This document shows, in pieces, positions 32,307-44,985 of a DNA stretch of 45,146 bases. Position numbers and translations under genes: made by a program. Source of the DNA: a virus; IMG/VR virus record IMGVR_UViG_3300035183_000564, positions 1-45,146 of that record; one strand, 5' to 3'. Position 1 is the stretch's first letter. Every line of letters starts with the position of its first letter. The notes beneath the pieces were generated by a model that saw only the letters and a list, made by a program, of their open reading frames with translations, searched no databases and was not told where the DNA came from.

Positions 32307-32837
32307 CTAGGAGCACTTGATTACATAGAACGTGTCGGCTGTCATCACCATCGTATGGTAGTCAAGAATCTCATGGCGGCGGCGGCGCGGGCAAGCAGAG
32401 CACGCTGCAAGTGCGAGCATGGCTTCTTGTGTTGGCTGTGAATAGTCCTTGAGTTCGATCATTGGATCACCGACGCCGCCAAGCCAAGTTGCTTTGATCC
32501 TGACGCCCCAACGAAGCTCCGCAGGCCCGACAAACTGCACGCAGACCAAGTGCGTCTTTTTGAGCGTGCCCTTTTCTTGGTTACAGCTAACGACGTAAAG
32601 GGTGTCGTCGCCGGTCGTGTGACCGTCGATGACCTCGTGCTGGTGCTCGCACTCCGTGCAAGCTACGTGCGCGAGCACGGCTTCCTGTTCCAACCTTGGC
32701 CGCGCCAAATCGAGGTCCGCCGCGACTGGATCGCTTCGGCCGTCGAGCCGGGTCGCCCACAACCTGGTGTTGATACGAACGCCGCGAAACTCTTTTGGCT
32801 CAAGAAGCTTGATGGAAACCAGATGCGTCCTTGCCAT
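32307..32837 (-). CDS. tandemly duplicated CP-HE-C family protein
   Basis: A 176-residue protein from the ATG at 32837 made of two similar halves. Each begins THLVxxxxLxPxEFRxGVRI, continues to ...EAxLA..AC..C..xxHEx[ID].xxxHT, and ends D[TT][FL]YV[VI]xC. The single-domain relative is at 41920-42168 (ITHLVRVRYLGPTANRGARL...YVISC). Conserved Cys and His suggest a metal or disulphide site. The family is not one I recognise. The frame stays open upstream to 32933, but without protein-like sequence. Confidence 0.72.
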   Translation of the reverse strand: MARTHLVSIKLLEPKEFRGVRINTRLWATRLDGRSDPVAADLDLARPRLEQEAVLAHVACTECEHQHEVIDGHTTGDDTLYVVSCNQEKGTLKKTHLVCVQFVGPAELRWGVRIKATWLGGVGDPMIELKDYSQPTQEAMLALAACSACPRRRRHEILDYHTMVMTADTFYVIKCS

Positions 32838-32842
32838 CAACT

Positions 32843-33187
32843 TCAATCCGCCGCACCGTTCACCCTCGCCAGATAGGCACGCTCTTCGGCCCGATGGGCC
32901 GAGCACCATCCGAGCACGTTCGCCGCCCAACATGCGGCGACAAGATGGGCGGGATCAGATGGTGCTCGCTTGCCCATCATAGCGTGATCCTTGACGTGGT
33001 CGAGGGTCAAGTAGCGAACATCGTCAGGGCGGTGGACCATGCCCCATTGGTTTCGACAGACGTGGTCGGGGTCCGTCCTGGCCGCGATGCACATGCCATC
33101 GCGGCGCAGGACGAACTCCCGAACTTCTGGGGTGACGGGATCAGTGCGGCCCGACCAGTTCGATGAGGCCCTGGTCGATGTCCGCAA
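32843..33187 (-). CDS. HNH-type endonuclease
   Basis: An approximately 114-residue protein. FVLRRDGMCIAARTD, HVCRNQWGMVHRP, LTLDHVKDHAMMGKR and a late HLVAACWAANVLGWCSAHR give the Cys, DH and N/H pattern of phage HNH nucleases. HNH enzymes nick DNA during packaging or act as homing nucleases. No ATG or GTG lies near the expected start; the TTG at 33187 is proposed, overlapping the previous gene by 47 nt. The true start is uncertain. Confidence 0.72.
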   Translation of the reverse strand: MRTSTRASSNWSGRTDPVTPEVREFVLRRDGMCIAARTDPDHVCRNQWGMVHRPDDVRYLTLDHVKDHAMMGKRAPSDPAHLVAACWAANVLGWCSAHRAEERAYLARVNGAAD

Positions 33188-39914: not shown

Positions 39915-39937
39915 TGCTAGCCTCCCTTCAAAGTAGG

Positions 39938-40010
39938 TGGCGGGCGCCGGGATCGAACCGGCCACGCGGGGGCATGAGCCCCGCCGGGGCACCAGCCCCA
40001 GCCGCCCGCA
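39938..40010 (-). tRNA. tRNA-Met (CAT), initiator-like
   Basis: Minus-strand 73-nt cloverleaf. The T arm is GCCGG TTCGATC CCGGC. The anticodon arm is CGGGG CTCATGC CCCCG with U33 and anticodon CAT. The D arm is GGGG CTGGTG CCCC. The acceptor pairs GCGGGC with GCCCGC, leaving position 1 unpaired with 72. GGG:CCC in the anticodon stem and the 1:72 mismatch are hallmarks of initiator tRNA. CCA is not encoded (ACCT follows). The D-arm spacing is one to two nt unusual, so a covariance search should fix its boundaries. Confidence 0.72.
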
Positions 40011-40288: not shown

Positions 40289-40537
40289 CTACTCCGTCTC
40301 GTAGGACGCGAACGCTGGCGCTGGCATAAGCGCACTTCGCCAGGCAAACGTCCTGCAGCCCGGGATTGCGTAGGCCTCGAAGATGAGCGATCCTTCGAAG
40401 CGGACTTCGGCTCGCGTAGCTTGACGGCTTTTCACAAGCTGAAAAGCCAGGGCATCGTAGTCTGGATTGTCGGTCCTGACCATCCGAAGTCCCTTACCAG
40501 TGTCGGCATAGAGCCTCCATTTCGGTCGGCGGCCCAT
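40289..40537 (-). CDS. hypothetical small protein downstream of ribozyme
   Basis: Eighty-two residues; ATG at 40537 with AAAGGAGG upstream, preceded by the leftmost hammerhead. Mixed basic alpha/beta (RLYADTGKGLRMVRTD...LAFQLVKSRQATRAEVRF). First gene of the transcript made after cleavage at 40604/40603. Not recognised. Confidence 0.62.
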   Translation of the reverse strand: MGRRPKWRLYADTGKGLRMVRTDNPDYDALAFQLVKSRQATRAEVRFEGSLIFEAYAIPGCRTFAWRSALMPAPAFASYETE

Positions 40538-40560
40538 TGTGATCTAGCCTCCTTTCTTTC

Positions 40561-40628
40561 ACCCCACGCCATCGTCAGGCCCTGGGCGGGGTCACCCCAG
40601 GACGACGGGCCAGGTGGCCCGTTTCGGC
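40561..40628 (-). ncRNA. hammerhead ribozyme 1 (type II)
   Basis: GCC-GAAA-helix III (ACGGGCC/GGCCCGU, loop ACCU)-GUC-helix I (GUCCUGGG/CCCAGGGC)-CUGACGA-U-GGC. Predicted cleavage is between 40604 and 40603. Helix II is the GCC/GGC pair, open at both RNA ends. Loop I ACCCC can pair with GGGGU just before the next gene's AAAGGAGG. The G of GCC is the G of the upstream gene's TAG stop. Confidence 0.82.
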
Positions 40629-41143
40629 TACTCTGGCCAGCACACCCGACAATCACCCGTCCAATCCAGCACCTGCCCGCAGGATGGGCACAGTTGGGGT
40701 GGGCGCTGTTCGGAGATGCAACGCGCCGCCGTGGCACCGGATGCGAGGGCACGAACCACAGACGGCCCACCGTACAGAATGCGGATGTCGGGGGTGAGAT
40801 AGTCGCCAAAACACATTGGGTTTGTGCAATGGCCAGGGATCGGCCGATACAGCCCAACCTGAACGAGCAGGTCGGACGGCTGCACCGTCACGTCACCCGG
40901 TGCGGTGGCCCGCGTCGCAAGCCGGACCGCAACGACGATGTCACCATCGCCCGGCGTAATCGAGCGCCGGTTTGGCACAACGCCAAGCAGCCCGGCCGTC
41001 GATGGGTGGCCAATGGCCGTATCGGCGGCGGCCTTGGCAATCGCCCGTACTTCATCGATTACGTCGTCGAGCGGCCATGCTGTAGAGAGAACGACGAGGC
41101 CGCCAAGGGGATGGGGCGGGAGCGCGTTTGTCACGAACAACAT
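40628..41143 (-). CDS. CP-HE-C-family-like protein with double zinc ribbon
   Basis: A 171-residue protein. The first 80 residues are alpha/beta (VIDEVRAIAKAAADTAIGHP...VVPNRRSITPGDGDIVVAVRL), resembling the end of the neighbouring family domain in order and in VPNRRSI/VPDRRPI. The C-terminus holds HCTNPMC and then CPSCGQVL...CRVC, probably zinc-binding. The start follows the previous stop without a gap, with GGAGG eight nt upstream. Function unknown. Confidence 0.66.
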   Translation of the reverse strand: MLFVTNALPPHPLGGLVVLSTAWPLDDVIDEVRAIAKAAADTAIGHPSTAGLLGVVPNRRSITPGDGDIVVAVRLATRATAPGDVTVQPSDLLVQVGLYRPIPGHCTNPMCFGDYLTPDIRILYGGPSVVRALASGATAARCISEQRPPQLCPSCGQVLDWTGDCRVCWPE

Positions 41144-41431
41144 TTAGTTAGCCTCCTCTTCACAGCTGATAATCACCAGCTCCGCTTGCTTCGTGTGCCG
41201 ACGGTCGTAGATCGGCCGTCGGTCGGGAACCCAGGCGAGCGCAAGGTGCCGCCGCTCTGGGCAGATGTTGACCATGAGGGCAGACAGCGCATCCGCAACT
41301 GCCTGGTTCTGTGACGTTTCGCCTGGCTGATACAGCGCACTGATGCGCTGGTCAGGATCGGTCACATCCTCGGCTGTCACGGCACGCCCACCGTAGCGGA
41401 CGGCCACGATGTGAAATCGGGCGCCGATCAT
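41144..41431 (-). CDS. CP-HE-C family protein
   Basis: A 95-residue protein. After IVAVRYGGRAV and a middle helix (VADALSALMVNICPERRH) comes LALAWVPDRRPI and a final strand AELVIISCEEEAN. It matches the pattern A...M...CP...H...[VI]PD-x-R...C of the two-domain 42254-42736 protein. The next ATG abuts its stop, so its last codons supply that gene's ribosome binding site. Confidence 0.68.
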   Translation of the reverse strand: MIGARFHIVAVRYGGRAVTAEDVTDPDQRISALYQPGETSQNQAVADALSALMVNICPERRHLALAWVPDRRPIYDRRHTKQAELVIISCEEEAN

Positions 41432-41652
41432 GCCATGGCCTCCTCATGGTCGCCCCAGTCAATCCGGACGGGGCGGCCGTCCTTCAGGGCGACAATGCAT
41501 GTTCCAAGCTCGCCATCCCAGGCGTGCTTGACCGCAACCGCCTTGGCGCGAGCTCGGGAACGACCGCGCCAGATCAGATCATCCGGCTCCCGACCTGGGC
41601 GCCAAGTGCCGCCGTCGCCATAGCGGATGCGTCGTACTTCGTACATTCTCAC
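41428..41652 (-). CDS. hypothetical basic protein
   Basis: Seventy-four residues from a GTG overlapping the upstream stop with GAGGAGG seven nt before it; an ATG two codons later is possible. MYEVRRIRYGDGGTWRPGR and a Lys/Ala helix, then VALKDGRPVRIDWGDHEE. A small beta-helix-beta fold, perhaps related to its neighbours. Function unknown. Confidence 0.6.
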   Translation of the reverse strand: MRMYEVRRIRYGDGGTWRPGREPDDLIWRGRSRARAKAVAVKHAWDGELGTCIVALKDGRPVRIDWGDHEEAMA

Positions 41653-41834
41653 GCCACAGCCTCCTCGTGCAGCGTCTCCCGGATTGACTGTCCAACGTAG
41701 ACAATCCGGACCCGCTTGGCACCTTGCTGTCGGGCGTCCTCGACAGCCGCGGCCACCCAAGCGGGCGCCAGGCGGCCACGTAGCCACGTCACAATCCAGC
41801 GGTCACCGTCTGCTTCTGCAACAACGTAGGTCAT
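41649..41834 (-). CDS. hypothetical small protein
   Basis: Sixty-one residues from the ATG at 41834, preceded by AAGGGAGGCTACC and a hammerhead. Strand (WIVTWLRGRL), helix (AAAVEDARQQGAKRV), strand (VRIVYVG). It heads a four-gene processed unit (41834 to 40628). Function unknown. Confidence 0.62.
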   Translation of the reverse strand: MTYVVAEADGDRWIVTWLRGRLAPAWVAAAVEDARQQGAKRVRIVYVGQSIRETLHEEAVA

Positions 41835-41850
41835 GGTAGCCTCCCTTCTC

Positions 41851-41919
41851 ACCCCTGCCATCGTCAGGCCCCGGGCGGGGTTACCCCGGAGCGACGGGCC
41901 CTAACGGGCCCGTTTCGGC
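41851..41919 (-). ncRNA. hammerhead ribozyme 2 (type II)
   Basis: Helix III ACGGGCCC/GGGCCCGU with loop GUUA, GUC cleavage between 41893 and 41892, helix I GCUCCGGG/CCCGGGGC, CUGACGA, helix II GCC/GGC. Loop I ACCCC pairs with GGGGU. It begins right after the TAA of the upstream gene. Confidence 0.85.
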
Positions 41920-42168
41920 TTACAGCTCGCAGCTGATGACATACGCCGTATCGTGATTCGGTGGCAGATCATGCGAACCGATCACGTCATGGCGCCCCGG
42001 GCACTCGGGGTTCACGATGCCAAGGGCCAGCTGGGCCCCCTGCTCTGACGAGCTGAGGACGTAATCGCGATTGACGGTCACTTGGCGGCCGAGCCAGACC
42101 GCTTTTAGCCTGGCGCCGCGATTAGCTGTAGGCCCCAGGTAGCGAACCCGGACTAGATGCGTGATCAT
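41920..42168 (-). CDS. CP-HE-C family protein, single domain
   Basis: Eighty-two residues: ITHLVRVRYLGPTANRGARL, VWLGRQVTVNRDYVL, a helix SSSEQGAQLALGIVNPECPG, then RHDVIGSH and final strand DTAYVISCEL. It is the clearest single-domain relative of the 32307-32837 tandem protein: same opening THLVxVxxLGP and same YVIxC end. AAAGGAGG precedes the ATG. It lies alone between two ribozymes. Confidence 0.72.
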   Translation of the reverse strand: MITHLVRVRYLGPTANRGARLKAVWLGRQVTVNRDYVLSSSEQGAQLALGIVNPECPGRHDVIGSHDLPPNHDTAYVISCEL

Positions 42169-42182
42169 GCTAGCCTCCTTTC

Positions 42183-42251
42183 ACCCCCTGCCATCATCAG
42201 GCCCCGGGCGGGGGTTACCCCAGGACGACGGGCCTAGCGGCCCGTTTCGGC
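42183..42251 (-). ncRNA. hammerhead ribozyme 3 (type II)
   Basis: Helix III ACGGGCC/GGCCCGU with loop GCUA, GUC cleavage between 42227 and 42226, helix I GUCCUGGG/CCCGGGGC with wobble pairs, CUGAUGA, helix II GCC/GGC. It has five C's in loop I and five G's in the downstream strand, where other copies have four and four. Confidence 0.85.
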
Positions 42252-42253
42252 GG

Positions 42254-42736
42254 TTAGGTGCGGCACCTCATGGCAATGAGCTGCCCGCGGTCGGCTGGGC
42301 GCCGGGCCCGATTGTCGGGCACCGTGGCCACGATCTCATGATCGCAGCCCGGGCAGACCTTGGCCATGAGCTCATCCAAGGCCGTTGCGACCTCGTTAGC
42401 TTCGATGTCCTGGATGCGGCCGTCTGGGCCAACCGCCACGACGTGATGCGGGCCGACCGTGTCGGGGATGCTGACCGTCTGGCCATCGCCCTCCTTACAT
42501 GCCAGGACGATAACCGCGCGGCGGTCGGCCTTGCGGCGCTGCACAGGCCGATTGTCGGGTATCCAGGCCACGACCTCATGACCGCGGCCCGGGCAGACCT
42601 TGGCCATGATGTTTTGCAGCACGGTCAGCCCTGGCCAGGCCCCGCCGAAGATGAGCCCAGCCGACGCATAACGCGTTTCAGTGTCGACTCCCTCAATCCA
42701 GTTCAGCCCATCATCCCGAAGTGCGATTGCATGCAT
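42254..42736 (-). CDS. CP-HE-C family protein, two domains
   Basis: A 160-residue protein. First domain: VLQNIMAKVCPGRGHEVVAWIPDNRPVQR...VIVLAC. Second: ALDELMAKVCPGCDHEIVATVPDNRA...LIAMRC. The two CP-x3-HE-[VI]-V-A-x-[IV]-PDNR stretches are nearly identical, so this is an internal duplication. CAGGGAGGC lies before the ATG at 42736. The Cys-His-Glu arrangement might bind metal. Family not recognised. Confidence 0.72.
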   Translation of the reverse strand: MHAIALRDDGLNWIEGVDTETRYASAGLIFGGAWPGLTVLQNIMAKVCPGRGHEVVAWIPDNRPVQRRKADRRAVIVLACKEGDGQTVSIPDTVGPHHVVAVGPDGRIQDIEANEVATALDELMAKVCPGCDHEIVATVPDNRARRPADRGQLIAMRCRT

Positions 42737-42738
42737 CG

Positions 42739-42987
42739 TCAGCCTCCCTGTCGGGCCCAGCGGCCGACGTAATGCCAGACACGGCGGCCGCGGCCTCCCC
42801 AATCAACGGTGCCAGTTGGCCCGTAGATGACGTCGGCCCCAGCTGGGGGCCGTCCGGTCCCCACCGGGCGATAGCCAGCCGCCCGAAGGGCTGCGATAGC
42901 CTCCCGAGCGTAGGCCGCACCGCCGCGGCCCAGCGCTCGCCAGTGCGAGTACTGGCCAAAGTTGCGCCGCACATCTTCGATCGTCAT
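42739..42987 (-). CDS. hypothetical small protein
   Basis: Eighty-two residues from the ATG at 42987, following AAGGGAGGCTACC and a hammerhead. IEDVRRNFGQYSHWRALGRGGAA, REAIAALRAAGYRPVGTGRP, then beta strands ending VWHYVGRW. Its stop is 2 nt before the next ATG, so the two share one processed transcript. Not recognised. Confidence 0.62.
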   Translation of the reverse strand: MTIEDVRRNFGQYSHWRALGRGGAAYAREAIAALRAAGYRPVGTGRPPAGADVIYGPTGTVDWGGRGRRVWHYVGRWARQGG

Positions 42988-43003
42988 GGTAGCCTCCCTT
43001 CTC

Positions 43004-43070
43004 ACCCCTGCCATCGTCAGGCCCTGGGCGGGGTCGCCCCGGGGCGACGGGCCAGGTGGCCCGTTTCGGC
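43004..43070 (-). ncRNA. hammerhead ribozyme 4 (type II)
   Basis: Helix III ACGGGCC/GGCCCGU with loop ACCU, GUC cleavage between 43046 and 43045, helix I GCCCCGGG/CCCAGGGC with one C.A mismatch, CUGACGA, helix II GCC/GGC. Loop I ACCCC can pair with GGGGU before the GGGAGG site. Confidence 0.8.
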
Positions 43071-43073
43071 GGT

Positions 43074-43334
43074 TCAATCCCAATACAGGCTCAGCTCTTC
43101 CTCCCACTCGGGGGGAATGGGCCCCCGAGCGGCCGCCGCCTTTGCATAAGCGGCCGCCTCACTATTCCAGCTTACGGGGATATAGGCCCCGCAGTTACCG
43201 CAGCTGAGAGGAGTAGATGTTTCATCCCAGCTGTAGTGAGGTTGACAACAGCTGTTTGGCCCGTAGAAGTGGGGCCCGCACCTTGTGCACAGGTCAGCTG
43301 CAATATCGGTGCAAGCGTAGCCCATGATTGCCAT
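43074..43334 (-). CDS. double zinc-knuckle miniprotein
   Basis: Eighty-six residues from the ATG at 43334. GYACTDIAADLCTRCGPH, then CCQPHYSWDETSTPLSCGNC, then a helix and EAAAYAKAAAARGPIPPEW. The cysteines form about two zinc sites. It is a close paralog of 44283-44546, sharing the IAADLC, SxPLSC, AYIPVSW and ARGPIP stretches. Single gene between two ribozymes. Confidence 0.7.
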   Translation of the reverse strand: MAIMGYACTDIAADLCTRCGPHFYGPNSCCQPHYSWDETSTPLSCGNCGAYIPVSWNSEAAAYAKAAAARGPIPPEWEEELSLYWD

Positions 43335-43351
43335 GACAGCCTCCCTTTCAG

Positions 43352-43418
43352 TCCCCATGCCATCGTCAGGCTCCGGTTGGGGAGTCCGGAGCGACGGGCC
43401 AGGTTGGCCCGTTTCGGC
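43352..43418 (-). ncRNA. hammerhead ribozyme 5 (type II)
   Basis: Helix III ACGGGCCA/UGGCCCGU with loop ACC, GUC cleavage between 43393 and 43392, helix I GCUCCGG/CCGGAGC (all Watson-Crick), CUGACGA, helix II GCC/GGC. Loop I UCCCCA pairs with UGGGGA, six pairs, instead of the ACCCC/GGGGU of copies 1-4. Confidence 0.87.
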
Positions 43419-43419
43419 T

Positions 43420-43716
43420 TCAATCGGTCGGCTGGCAGGTGACGATCGCCGCCAGCTTGGCATGATCGTCGGCGCGATCGATCGTCTCCAGCTGGGCGAT
43501 CGCATGGGCGCCAGCTGGGCAGCTGAAGTGACGGTTTAGGTGTCGGGCCCGCTGGAAGGCCCGATCGATCGCAGTTTGGATATCCTGCTCGACAAACGGG
43601 CCCGACTGCCGATCTACAGTCCCAAAGATCGGGCGGCCGTCCAGCCGTGATTGTCGGGGCCCGAGAATGCGAGCTTGGACCCGCCGCGGCCCAACATTGA
43701 TGATTGCGAGGTGCAT
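43420..43716 (-). CDS. CP-HE-C family protein, divergent
   Basis: Ninety-eight residues: LAIINVGPRRVQARILGPRQ, a helix (IQTAIDRAFQRARHLNRH), FSCPAGAHAIAQLETIDR and a last strand LAAIVTCQPTD. The order helix, CP-x3-H-x-I, strand ending I-V-x-C matches the family despite low identity. ATG with AAGGGAGGC. Alone between two ribozymes. Confidence 0.66.
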   Translation of the reverse strand: MHLAIINVGPRRVQARILGPRQSRLDGRPIFGTVDRQSGPFVEQDIQTAIDRAFQRARHLNRHFSCPAGAHAIAQLETIDRADDHAKLAAIVTCQPTD

Positions 43717-43734
43717 GTTTCAGCCTCCCTTCGA

Positions 43735-43801
43735 TCCCCATGCCATCGTCAGGCTCCGGTTGGGGAGTCCGGAGCGACGGGCCAGGTTGGCCCGTTTCGG
43801 C
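43735..43801 (-). ncRNA. hammerhead ribozyme 6 (type II)
   Basis: Helix III ACGGGCCA/UGGCCCGU with loop ACC, GUC cleavage between 43776 and 43775, helix I GCUCCGG/CCGGAGC, CUGACGA, helix II GCC/GGC. UCCCCA of loop I pairs with UGGGGA. Its core is almost identical to copy 5, whereas the flanks differ. Confidence 0.87.
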
Positions 43802-43802
43802 G

Positions 43803-44198
43803 CTAGCGCATGGCGGCCTCGACGCGCAGGGCGGCCTCGACGCGTCGCACAATATCCCGACCCGCGGGGCAAAGGCCCACCGCGCGGCCGAAGATCGGCG
43901 CGCCCCAGTAACTCCACACGACGTGCCCGATGGGCTGCAGCCCGAGCTCCCAGGCTGCTTGCGCCCAATCGCCGGGGAGCGCCGTATCGCAGCGTTCGGC
44001 GCGGCCCATAGCGGCCTCATGAGCCAACATTGCCAGGTCAGCTTGGGCCAGCTTGGCCCGCTCGGGATCGTCCCCGACAGCTGCTTCCTCGAGCTCCCGA
44101 AGGCGCCCATTGGCCAAGTGCGGCCGCCGCAGCTGGATATCCTCCCGAAGATGGCGCACATCCTCGAGCAGCTCATAGGCATTGCGATAGCAGTTCAT
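43803..44198 (-). CDS. hypothetical helical protein
   Basis: A 131-residue, mostly helical protein (YELLEDVRHLREDIQLRRPH, AKLAQADLAMLAHEAA), then a GLCPAGRD loop and a basic end. CPAGRD echoes the CP motif of the neighbouring family but without the final Cys strand. AGGAGG precedes the ATG. Alone between two ribozymes. Confidence 0.66.
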   Translation of the reverse strand: MNCYRNAYELLEDVRHLREDIQLRRPHLANGRLRELEEAAVGDDPERAKLAQADLAMLAHEAAMGRAERCDTALPGDWAQAAWELGLQPIGHVVWSYWGAPIFGRAVGLCPAGRDIVRRVEAALRVEAAMR

Positions 44199-44212
44199 CG
44201 GTTAGCCTCCTA

Positions 44213-44278
44213 TCCCCTGCCATCATCAGGCCCCGGTTGGGGAGTCCGGAGCGACGGGCCAAGCTGGCCCGTTTCGGC
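44213..44278 (-). ncRNA. hammerhead ribozyme 7 (type II)
   Basis: Helix III ACGGGCCA/UGGCCCGU with loop GCU, GUC cleavage between 44253 and 44252, helix I GCUCCGG/CCGGGGC with one U.G, CUGAUGA, helix II GCC/GGC. UCCCC of loop I pairs with GGGGA, which sits 3 nt from the AGGAGG site. Confidence 0.85.
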
Positions 44279-44282
44279 GCGG

Positions 44283-44546
44283 TCAGCTATGCCATTCAAG
44301 CTCAGCTTGCCATTCCTCGGGGATCGGTCCCCGCGCCGCCGCCTCCCTCACGTATGCCACTGCCTCACTATCCCAGCTGACGGGGATGTAGCTGTGGCAC
44401 ACATCGCAGCTGAGGGGTATCGAGGTGCTATCCCATTCAGCATAGGGATAGCAACAGCTCTCGGGGTCATCTACGTCCCCGTGAGGCCCGCAGCTGACGC
44501 ATAGATCAGCTGCTATTCGATTGCAAGCGTAGCCCAATACTCGCAT
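44283..44546 (-). CDS. double zinc-knuckle miniprotein, paralog
   Basis: Eighty-seven residues: GYACNRIAADLCVSCGPH, CCYPYAEWDSTSIPLSCDVC, SYIPVSWDSEAVAYVREAAA and RGPIPEEW. It is closely similar to 43074-43334 over its whole length, so the two arose by duplication about 1.2 kb apart. It is preceded by the second class of spacer element, not a hammerhead. Confidence 0.72.
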   Translation of the reverse strand: MRVLGYACNRIAADLCVSCGPHGDVDDPESCCYPYAEWDSTSIPLSCDVCHSYIPVSWDSEAVAYVREAAARGPIPEEWQAELEWHS

Positions 44547-44657
44547 GTTCGCCTCCCATGTATGGGGGCAGCTGTGTCAGCTGCCAGCGCCCTATCCTGG
44601 GCGCTCGGGGGCCCGTGAACGGCGGGCCCTCGAGCGCTCGGGAGCGAGCGCCCTAGG
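44547..44657 (-). repeat. structured spacer element, class 2, copy 1
   Basis: Minus-strand GAGCGCUC-GA-GGGCCCG...CGGGCCC-CC-GAGCGCC, then CAGGAUAGGGCGCU. A second hairpin GGCAGCTG/CAGCTGCC (44567-44585) precedes GGGAGGCGAAC and the ATG. It shares its core with the 44892 spacer. It lacks the CUGANGA/GAAA core, so it is not a hammerhead. Confidence 0.7.
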
Positions 44658-44891: not shown

Positions 44892-44985
44892 TGTTCGCCT
44901 CCCATTATTCTGTTAGCTAGCGCCCTATCCTGAGCGCTCGGGGGCCCGCCAATACGGGCCCTTGAGCGCTCGGGCTCTCGAGCGC
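44892..44985 (-). repeat. structured spacer element, class 2, copy 2
   Basis: Minus-strand GAGCGCUC-AA-GGGCCCG-UAUUGG-CGGGCCC-CC-GAGCGCUC, then AGGAUAGGGCGCU: 8-bp and 7-bp stacked helices around an internal loop. The core matches copy 1 (44547-44657), while the loop and flanks vary. It ends with a GGGAGGCGAAC ribosome-binding site, as copy 1 does. Confidence 0.7.

Follow-up and report, generated by a model that had tools for sequence, protein, structure and literature searches.

The region analysed here belongs to a 45,146-nt viral DNA (IMG/VR record IMGVR_UViG_3300035183_000564, positions 1 to 45,146; hereafter, the window), which encodes a phage with a major head protein, a helicase, a recombination-type exonuclease and DNA methyltransferases. 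Between 44,546 and 40,019 a run of small genes follows one another on the minus strand, separated by junctions of 84, 86, 85, 86, 2, 85, 85, 2, -4, 0, 90 and 6 nt. The five tight junctions (-4 to 6 nt) carry no ribozyme, and all seven wide gaps (84-90 nt) consist of a type II hammerhead ribozyme together with a Shine-Dalgarno sequence. In each of these gaps the ribozyme starts 0-4 nt past the stop codon of the upstream gene or shares its last base, and each gap ends in GGAGGCU and then the start codon of the next gene. The ribozymes are the sole intergenic sequence of any length within the gene run. The numbers of genes enclosed between successive ribozymes are 1, 1, 1, 2, 1 and 4, in addition to the two ends of the array.

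The seven elements extend from 40,564 to 44,279 on the minus strand and are the only matches in the record to the Rfam covariance model Hammerhead_II (RF02276), which all of them match over the full length (model positions 1-66) with 34.8-44.5 bits (Table 1). Three copies exceed the curated cut-off of 37 bits. The original prediction had described seven minus-strand spacers with a core of CUGANGA, GAAA and GUC, and every one of these parts was found where it had been placed: CUGAYGA, GAAA and GUC are intact in all seven copies, UH at the cleavage site is invariant, and C17 occupies the predicted cleavage positions (44253 and 40604 were verified by hand on the sequence). Alignment of the copies revealed three invariant blocks, GCCGAAACGGGCC, GGCCCGUC and CUGA(U/C)GAUGGC. 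Helices I and III are closed and helix II is open, with paired cells making up 97.3% of the pairing table. The exact motif CTGAYGATGGC occurs seven times in the record, always inside a ribozyme; with one mismatch allowed there were 14 matches versus 3.1 +/- 1.7 expected, and the full type II descriptor gave one match in 461 kb of shuffled sequence. Chance occurrence of the motifs is ruled out by these shuffled-sequence counts. From sequence it is nearly certain that the seven elements are hammerhead ribozymes and, judging by the published activity of comparable clusters, very likely that they cut themselves.

Variation among the copies is confined to part of the structure. Helices II and III do not vary among the seven, and helix I varies at three of its seven pairs, two of them with both sides changed, while pairing is kept in 98% of cells. 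The helices had been described as perfect, which does not hold for the copy cleaved at 43046, where helix I contains a C-A mismatch; the remaining helix I differences preserve pairing. With only seven similar copies, the covariation within the window is by itself non-significant (75 of 500 shuffles were equally high). Two contiguous subfamilies can be distinguished along the array, the upstream three copies belonging to subfamily A and the downstream four to subfamily B (AAA BBBB).

Table 1. Hammerhead ribozymes and genes of the array, from the upstream to the downstream end
Feature	Position	Strand	Predicted cleavage	RF02276 (bits)	Remarks
Array gene	44283..44546	-			87 aa, Cys-rich, open frame; 61% identical paralogue of 43074-43334
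Type II hammerhead 1 (subfamily A)	44211..44279	-	44253/44252	44.1	Stop codon 4 nt before helix II
Array gene	43803..44198	-			131 aa, no known family
Type II hammerhead 2 (subfamily A)	43734..43802	-	43776/43775	34.8	Pseudoknot 6 bp
Array gene	43420..43716	-			98 aa, no known family
Type II hammerhead 3 (subfamily A)	43351..43419	-	43393/43392	36.9	
Array gene	43074..43334	-			86 aa, Cys-rich
Type II hammerhead 4 (subfamily B)	43002..43071	-	43046/43045	36.2	C-A mismatch in helix I
Two tightly packed array genes	42254..42987	-			82 aa + 160 aa, gap 2 nt, one ribozyme-bounded segment
Type II hammerhead 5 (subfamily B)	42182..42252	-	42227/42226	39.5	
Array gene	41920..42168	-			82 aa, weak PHROG 3199 match (unknown function)
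Type II hammerhead 6 (subfamily B)	41849..41920	-	41893/41892	44.5	Upstream TAA adjoins helix II
Four tightly packed array genes	40628..41834	-			61/72/95/171 aa, gaps 2, -4 and 0 nt, one ribozyme-bounded segment
Type II hammerhead 7 (subfamily B)	40564..40629	-	40604/40603	36.9	
Array gene	40289..40537	-			82 aa, past the last ribozyme

The conserved extra U between CUGAYGA and helix II had been taken for a deviation from the hammerhead fold. Our initial pattern scans of viral and of bacterial/archaeal contigs required this U; the question was therefore put to 84 ribozymes in these loci that fall outside the scan pattern and hence were not selected for it. Between CUGANGA and helix II, 26 of them carry a single U, two an A, one UU and 55 nothing at all. 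Helix II itself changes among these 84 ribozymes (GCC/GGC, GGC/GCC, GUC/GAC, ACC/GGU and GAC/GUC, the descriptor having required at least 2 pairs). A defect is ruled out by the frequency of the U among copies unselected for it, and the extra U is a bulge beside a real helix, an ordinary natural variant rather than an anomaly.

Furthermore, all seven copies can form a pseudoknot of 5-6 bp between loop I and the 3' tail, CCCC or CCCCC pairing with GGGG or GGGGG, a feature that is absent from the original prediction. Loop I of hammerhead 5 has five C and its tail five G, with a run of 6 bp. According to the published type II consensus, loop I pairs with the tail behind helix II, and this contact is important for fast cleavage (PMC3088659). 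Among 253 distinct ribozymes from the retrieved contigs, the mean length of the longest Watson-Crick run joining loop I to the tail was 4.10, versus 2.84 (sd 0.05) when tails were exchanged between contigs, with no overlap with the observed mean in 200 shuffles. At least 4 pairs were present in 66% of these ribozymes versus 22% with swapped tails.

Several observations weigh against the reading of the seven copies as self-cutting elements of the transcript. Four of the seven lie 0.1-2.2 bits under the Rfam cut-off (E 7e-5 to 2.6e-4). Loop I can pair with itself in the four copies of subfamily B, in competition with the pseudoknot, and the minimum-energy folds of several copies, in a prediction that does not model pseudoknots, favour alternative pairings. 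In all seven gaps (e.g., 43335-43425) the 5' arm of helix II, (A)GCC, can pair with the GGAGGCU around the Shine-Dalgarno sequence, and the folds of several copies favour this pairing over helix II; if it is real, the ribosome site could stay hidden until the RNA is cut. In earlier experiments 4 of 18 consensus-conforming hammerheads were inactive in vitro, and such ribozymes were sometimes slower with a stronger stem I or II (PMC3088659).

The high similarity of the copies, along with the four scores under the cut-off, might also be expected of hammerhead-like repeats that have decayed or have no function and do no more than propagate as DNA. We regard this explanation as very improbable. The core bases are intact in seven of seven copies and the changes in helix I keep its pairing, the pseudoknot is kept across the 253 copies, and the placement of the ribozyme relative to the stop codon, considered next, is kept in many other phage loci.

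On the position of the stop codon, the original prediction had noted only that the helix III hairpin comes right behind it. Counted from the first base of helix II, the upstream stops of the window end at -4, -1, -1, -3, -2, 0 and +1 nt. In hammerhead 7 the G of the upstream TAG serves as the first base of helix II too. Among the matches listed, an upstream stop within -5 to +1 nt was found for 167 of 233 ribozymes from viral contigs (72%) and for 72 of 103 from genome contigs (70%), both samples being pattern-selected and possibly sharing prophage lineages. Hairpins of intrinsic terminators in the same loci showed this placement in 11% of cases (13 of 115 viral, 8 of 73 genome). Kinship was corrected for only by counting one ribozyme per locus, and the abutment persisted in 94 of 120 viral loci and in 59 of 83 of the genome set. 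Where the stop ended at +1, it was TAG in 46 of 47 cases, its G doubling as the first base of helix II. These distances were derived by a longest-open-frame rule instead of trained gene calls, and such a rule could exaggerate the abutment; applied in the same way, 9% of random GAAA sites fell in the -12 to +3 range versus 74% at ribozymes.

Such tight placement raises the possibility that processing is gated by translation. A ribosome ending the upstream gene would sit on the arm of helix II, on GAAA and on the first part of helix III, and the ribozyme would fold and cut only when no terminating ribosome is present; cleavage would then report on translation and would never sever the mRNA under that ribosome. 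Abutment to the stop, seen for about 70% of the ribozymes of both the viral and the genome-contig set but for 11% of terminators, is in line with this idea, as is the looser 3' side, where the start codon follows the ribozyme at 22-33 nt (quartiles). However, compaction of phage genomes alone could push a ribozyme against the stop, and a stop past +1 would enter the ribozyme core, which constitutes a natural wall. Compaction is the simplest cause of the abutment, and involvement of the terminating ribosome would be of greater interest; we consider such gating unlikely, if worth keeping in mind.

Comparable arrays were revealed in other viruses, and the type II descriptor detected many loci with more than one copy. 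Four-copy loci are also present in contigs of Paractinoplanes rishiriensis NBRC 108556 and Gemmiger sp. An120. The 112-kb contig IMGVR_UViG_3300033112_000310 carries 20 RF02276 copies, all in its first 14 kb and on one strand, and several other contigs carry 7-9 copies each (whole-record searches). Application of the type II descriptor to the first 16 kb of the 112-kb contig yielded 23 hammerheads in about 13 kb, delimiting segments of about 200-980 nt with mostly one open frame apiece. The products encoded in this array include an ArdC-type antirestriction protein and a Ku protein; one of the clusters reported in 2011 likewise flanked an antirestriction gene, ardA (PMC3088659). Only 4 of the at least 20 copies in the array pass the Rfam cut-off. 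Among the matches listed, at least 12 of 128 viral loci, which are short, contain at least 4 copies. We also considered the in-frame AUG in CUGAYGAUGGC as a start codon and rejected it: it extends the frame in about one third of the segments of the largest array, as expected by chance.

Ribozymes resemble one another more within arrays (mean similarity 0.86 in the window) than between arrays (0.63), yet on neither side of pairs with 85-99% identity do the adjoining genes show clear similarity. In the window, hammerhead 3 is 97% identical to hammerhead 2, and the flanking genes of the two are unrelated. Near-identical ribozymes amid unrelated genes fit a spacer that was copied or homogenised independently of the genes, or an exchange of cassettes at the spacers. 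In two further arrays (L109 and L124) the ribozymes are 94-97% identical between unrelated genes, and their sequences suggest a recent spread of the spacer alone or an exchange of cassettes.

These patterns could mean that the spacers, copied or homogenised within the phage, act mainly as repeat DNA through which the phage acquires, loses and exchanges small gene cassettes, with self-cleavage keeping newly inserted genes from disturbing the mRNAs of their neighbours. The higher similarity within arrays, the near-identical pairs amid dissimilar genes, the contiguity of the window subfamilies and the mostly orphan character of the array genes all fit this explanation. By itself, however, it leaves the conserved catalytic core and the pseudoknot unexplained, and no close relatives with gene swaps at the ribozyme gaps were found. 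It is possible, although we would not favour it as the main function, and it is compatible with processing of the transcript rather than exclusive of it.

The array genes are mostly orphans, the exception being the two 61%-identical Cys-rich paralogues; searches for families and functions of their products gave no known function, and no homologues were detected in viral contigs or, at the DNA level, in phage isolates. Nine contigs with a related head protein contain no hammerhead, and the longest of them carries none of the array genes. No consensus promoter-like sites were found within the array, and the one weak terminator-like match lies inside a gene, shuffled sequence giving more such matches. 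The lack of promoter-like sites and the lone intragenic terminator-like match lend weak support to a single transcript. The window record is linear, and the array may extend beyond its ends.

Several of the small encoded proteins (42254-42736, 41144-41431, 41920-42168 and 32307-32933) seemingly have in common a short motif, CPxx(x)H, followed by a V.SC-like end. The motif is present twice in 42254-42736, within a 62-nt DNA repeat of 89% identity, and these proteins possibly form one expanding family. Just past the downstream end of the array, the same strand carries a tRNA-Met (CAT) gene (39936-40007). Upstream of the array, two gaps on the minus strand (44547-44657 and about 44906-44985) contain a different repeated structured RNA, which begins right behind a stop codon and is followed in turn by GGGAGGCGAAC and a start codon. 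It forms a long nested GC-rich hairpin (folding z about -4.6 and -4.7), whose 3' side is conserved (94% over 33 nt) and in which AGGAUA is unpaired or weakly paired. It matched no Rfam family and had no relatives in the other viral contigs searched, and it is a candidate for another processing element.

Clustering of phage hammerheads is itself not new. The original prediction held that hammerheads occur singly in bacteria and phages, which is wrong, as Perreault et al. (2011; PMC3088659) described multiple prophage hammerheads flanking individual genes or short gene blocks. The same authors suggested that long phage transcripts are processed into mRNAs of single genes, and demonstrated that three tandem arrangements cleaved in vitro and that a triple cleaved in E. 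coli. A serially self-processing polycistron remains the best reading of the array, and processing of this kind was already proposed in 2011. A 2017 review (PMC6155905) noted that hammerheads flank small ORFs of unknown function and listed the purpose of phage hammerheads as an open question.

Compared with RF02276, the copies of the window share the permuted order with an open helix II, the CUGANGA/GAAA/GUC core, the closed helices I and III and the loop I-tail pseudoknot. They differ in having a GCC/GGC helix II with a bulged U. In the model helix II is shorter and the U counts as an insertion, a probable contributor to the low Rfam scores. Like the prophage clusters of Clostridium scindens, Azorhizobium caulinodans and Agrobacterium tumefaciens (PMC3088659), the window contains several same-strand hammerheads flanking single genes or short blocks in a phage. 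In contrast to those clusters, it has seven consecutive copies, all of type II, one in each wide gap. The haloviruses HF1 and HF2 (PMC3088659) provide a further parallel, a viral hammerhead just before a gene (helicase) with a mapped 5' end near the cleavage site, but theirs is a single copy with a variant core in an archaeal virus. Thus, the consecutive copy number, the regularity of one ribozyme per gap and the abutment to the stop codon appear to go beyond earlier reports and are seemingly undescribed. The main text of PMC3088659 makes no mention of stop codons, and a literature search, many subscription papers lying beyond its reach, found no statement of the abutment.

Processing of the operon is the best-supported function of the array. 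Probably the type II hammerheads punctuate one long phage transcript and cut it into separate mRNAs. Each ribozyme, filling the whole gap between stop and start together with the Shine-Dalgarno sequence of the next gene, would cut itself behind GUC after transcription. The upstream product would retain an intact reading frame and carry a 2',3'-cyclic phosphate on its terminal helix III hairpin, and the downstream product would begin 54-66 nt ahead of the start codon with a 5'-OH and the helix I hairpin, which could pair with the tail as a pseudoknot. The outcome would be separate mRNAs with one to four small genes each. That all seven ribozymes cut in the infected cell is likely. Hairpin starts with a 5'-OH and hairpin ends with a cyclic phosphate should withstand the routes by which the decay of bacterial mRNA usually begins. 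The benefit may lie in independent and longer-lived mRNAs, because hairpin ends, 5'-OH and 2',3'-cyclic phosphate should slow decay and uncouple neighbours, a proposal that we hold to be plausible without quite calling it probable.

As the Rfam cut-off recovers only three of the seven copies of the window and, for the largest array, only 4 out of 20 or more, current annotation hides such arrays. It may even be that long ribozyme-punctuated operons are a widespread architecture of phage expression, in which stop-docked type II hammerheads let terminating ribosomes control the cutting into single-gene mRNAs, a generalization that we put forward as speculative and rather unlikely. The existence of arrays of up to 23 copies, with mostly one gene per segment, makes the processing of polycistrons hard to call a coincidence, and the abutment to the stop codon provides a concrete, testable link between translation and self-cleavage.

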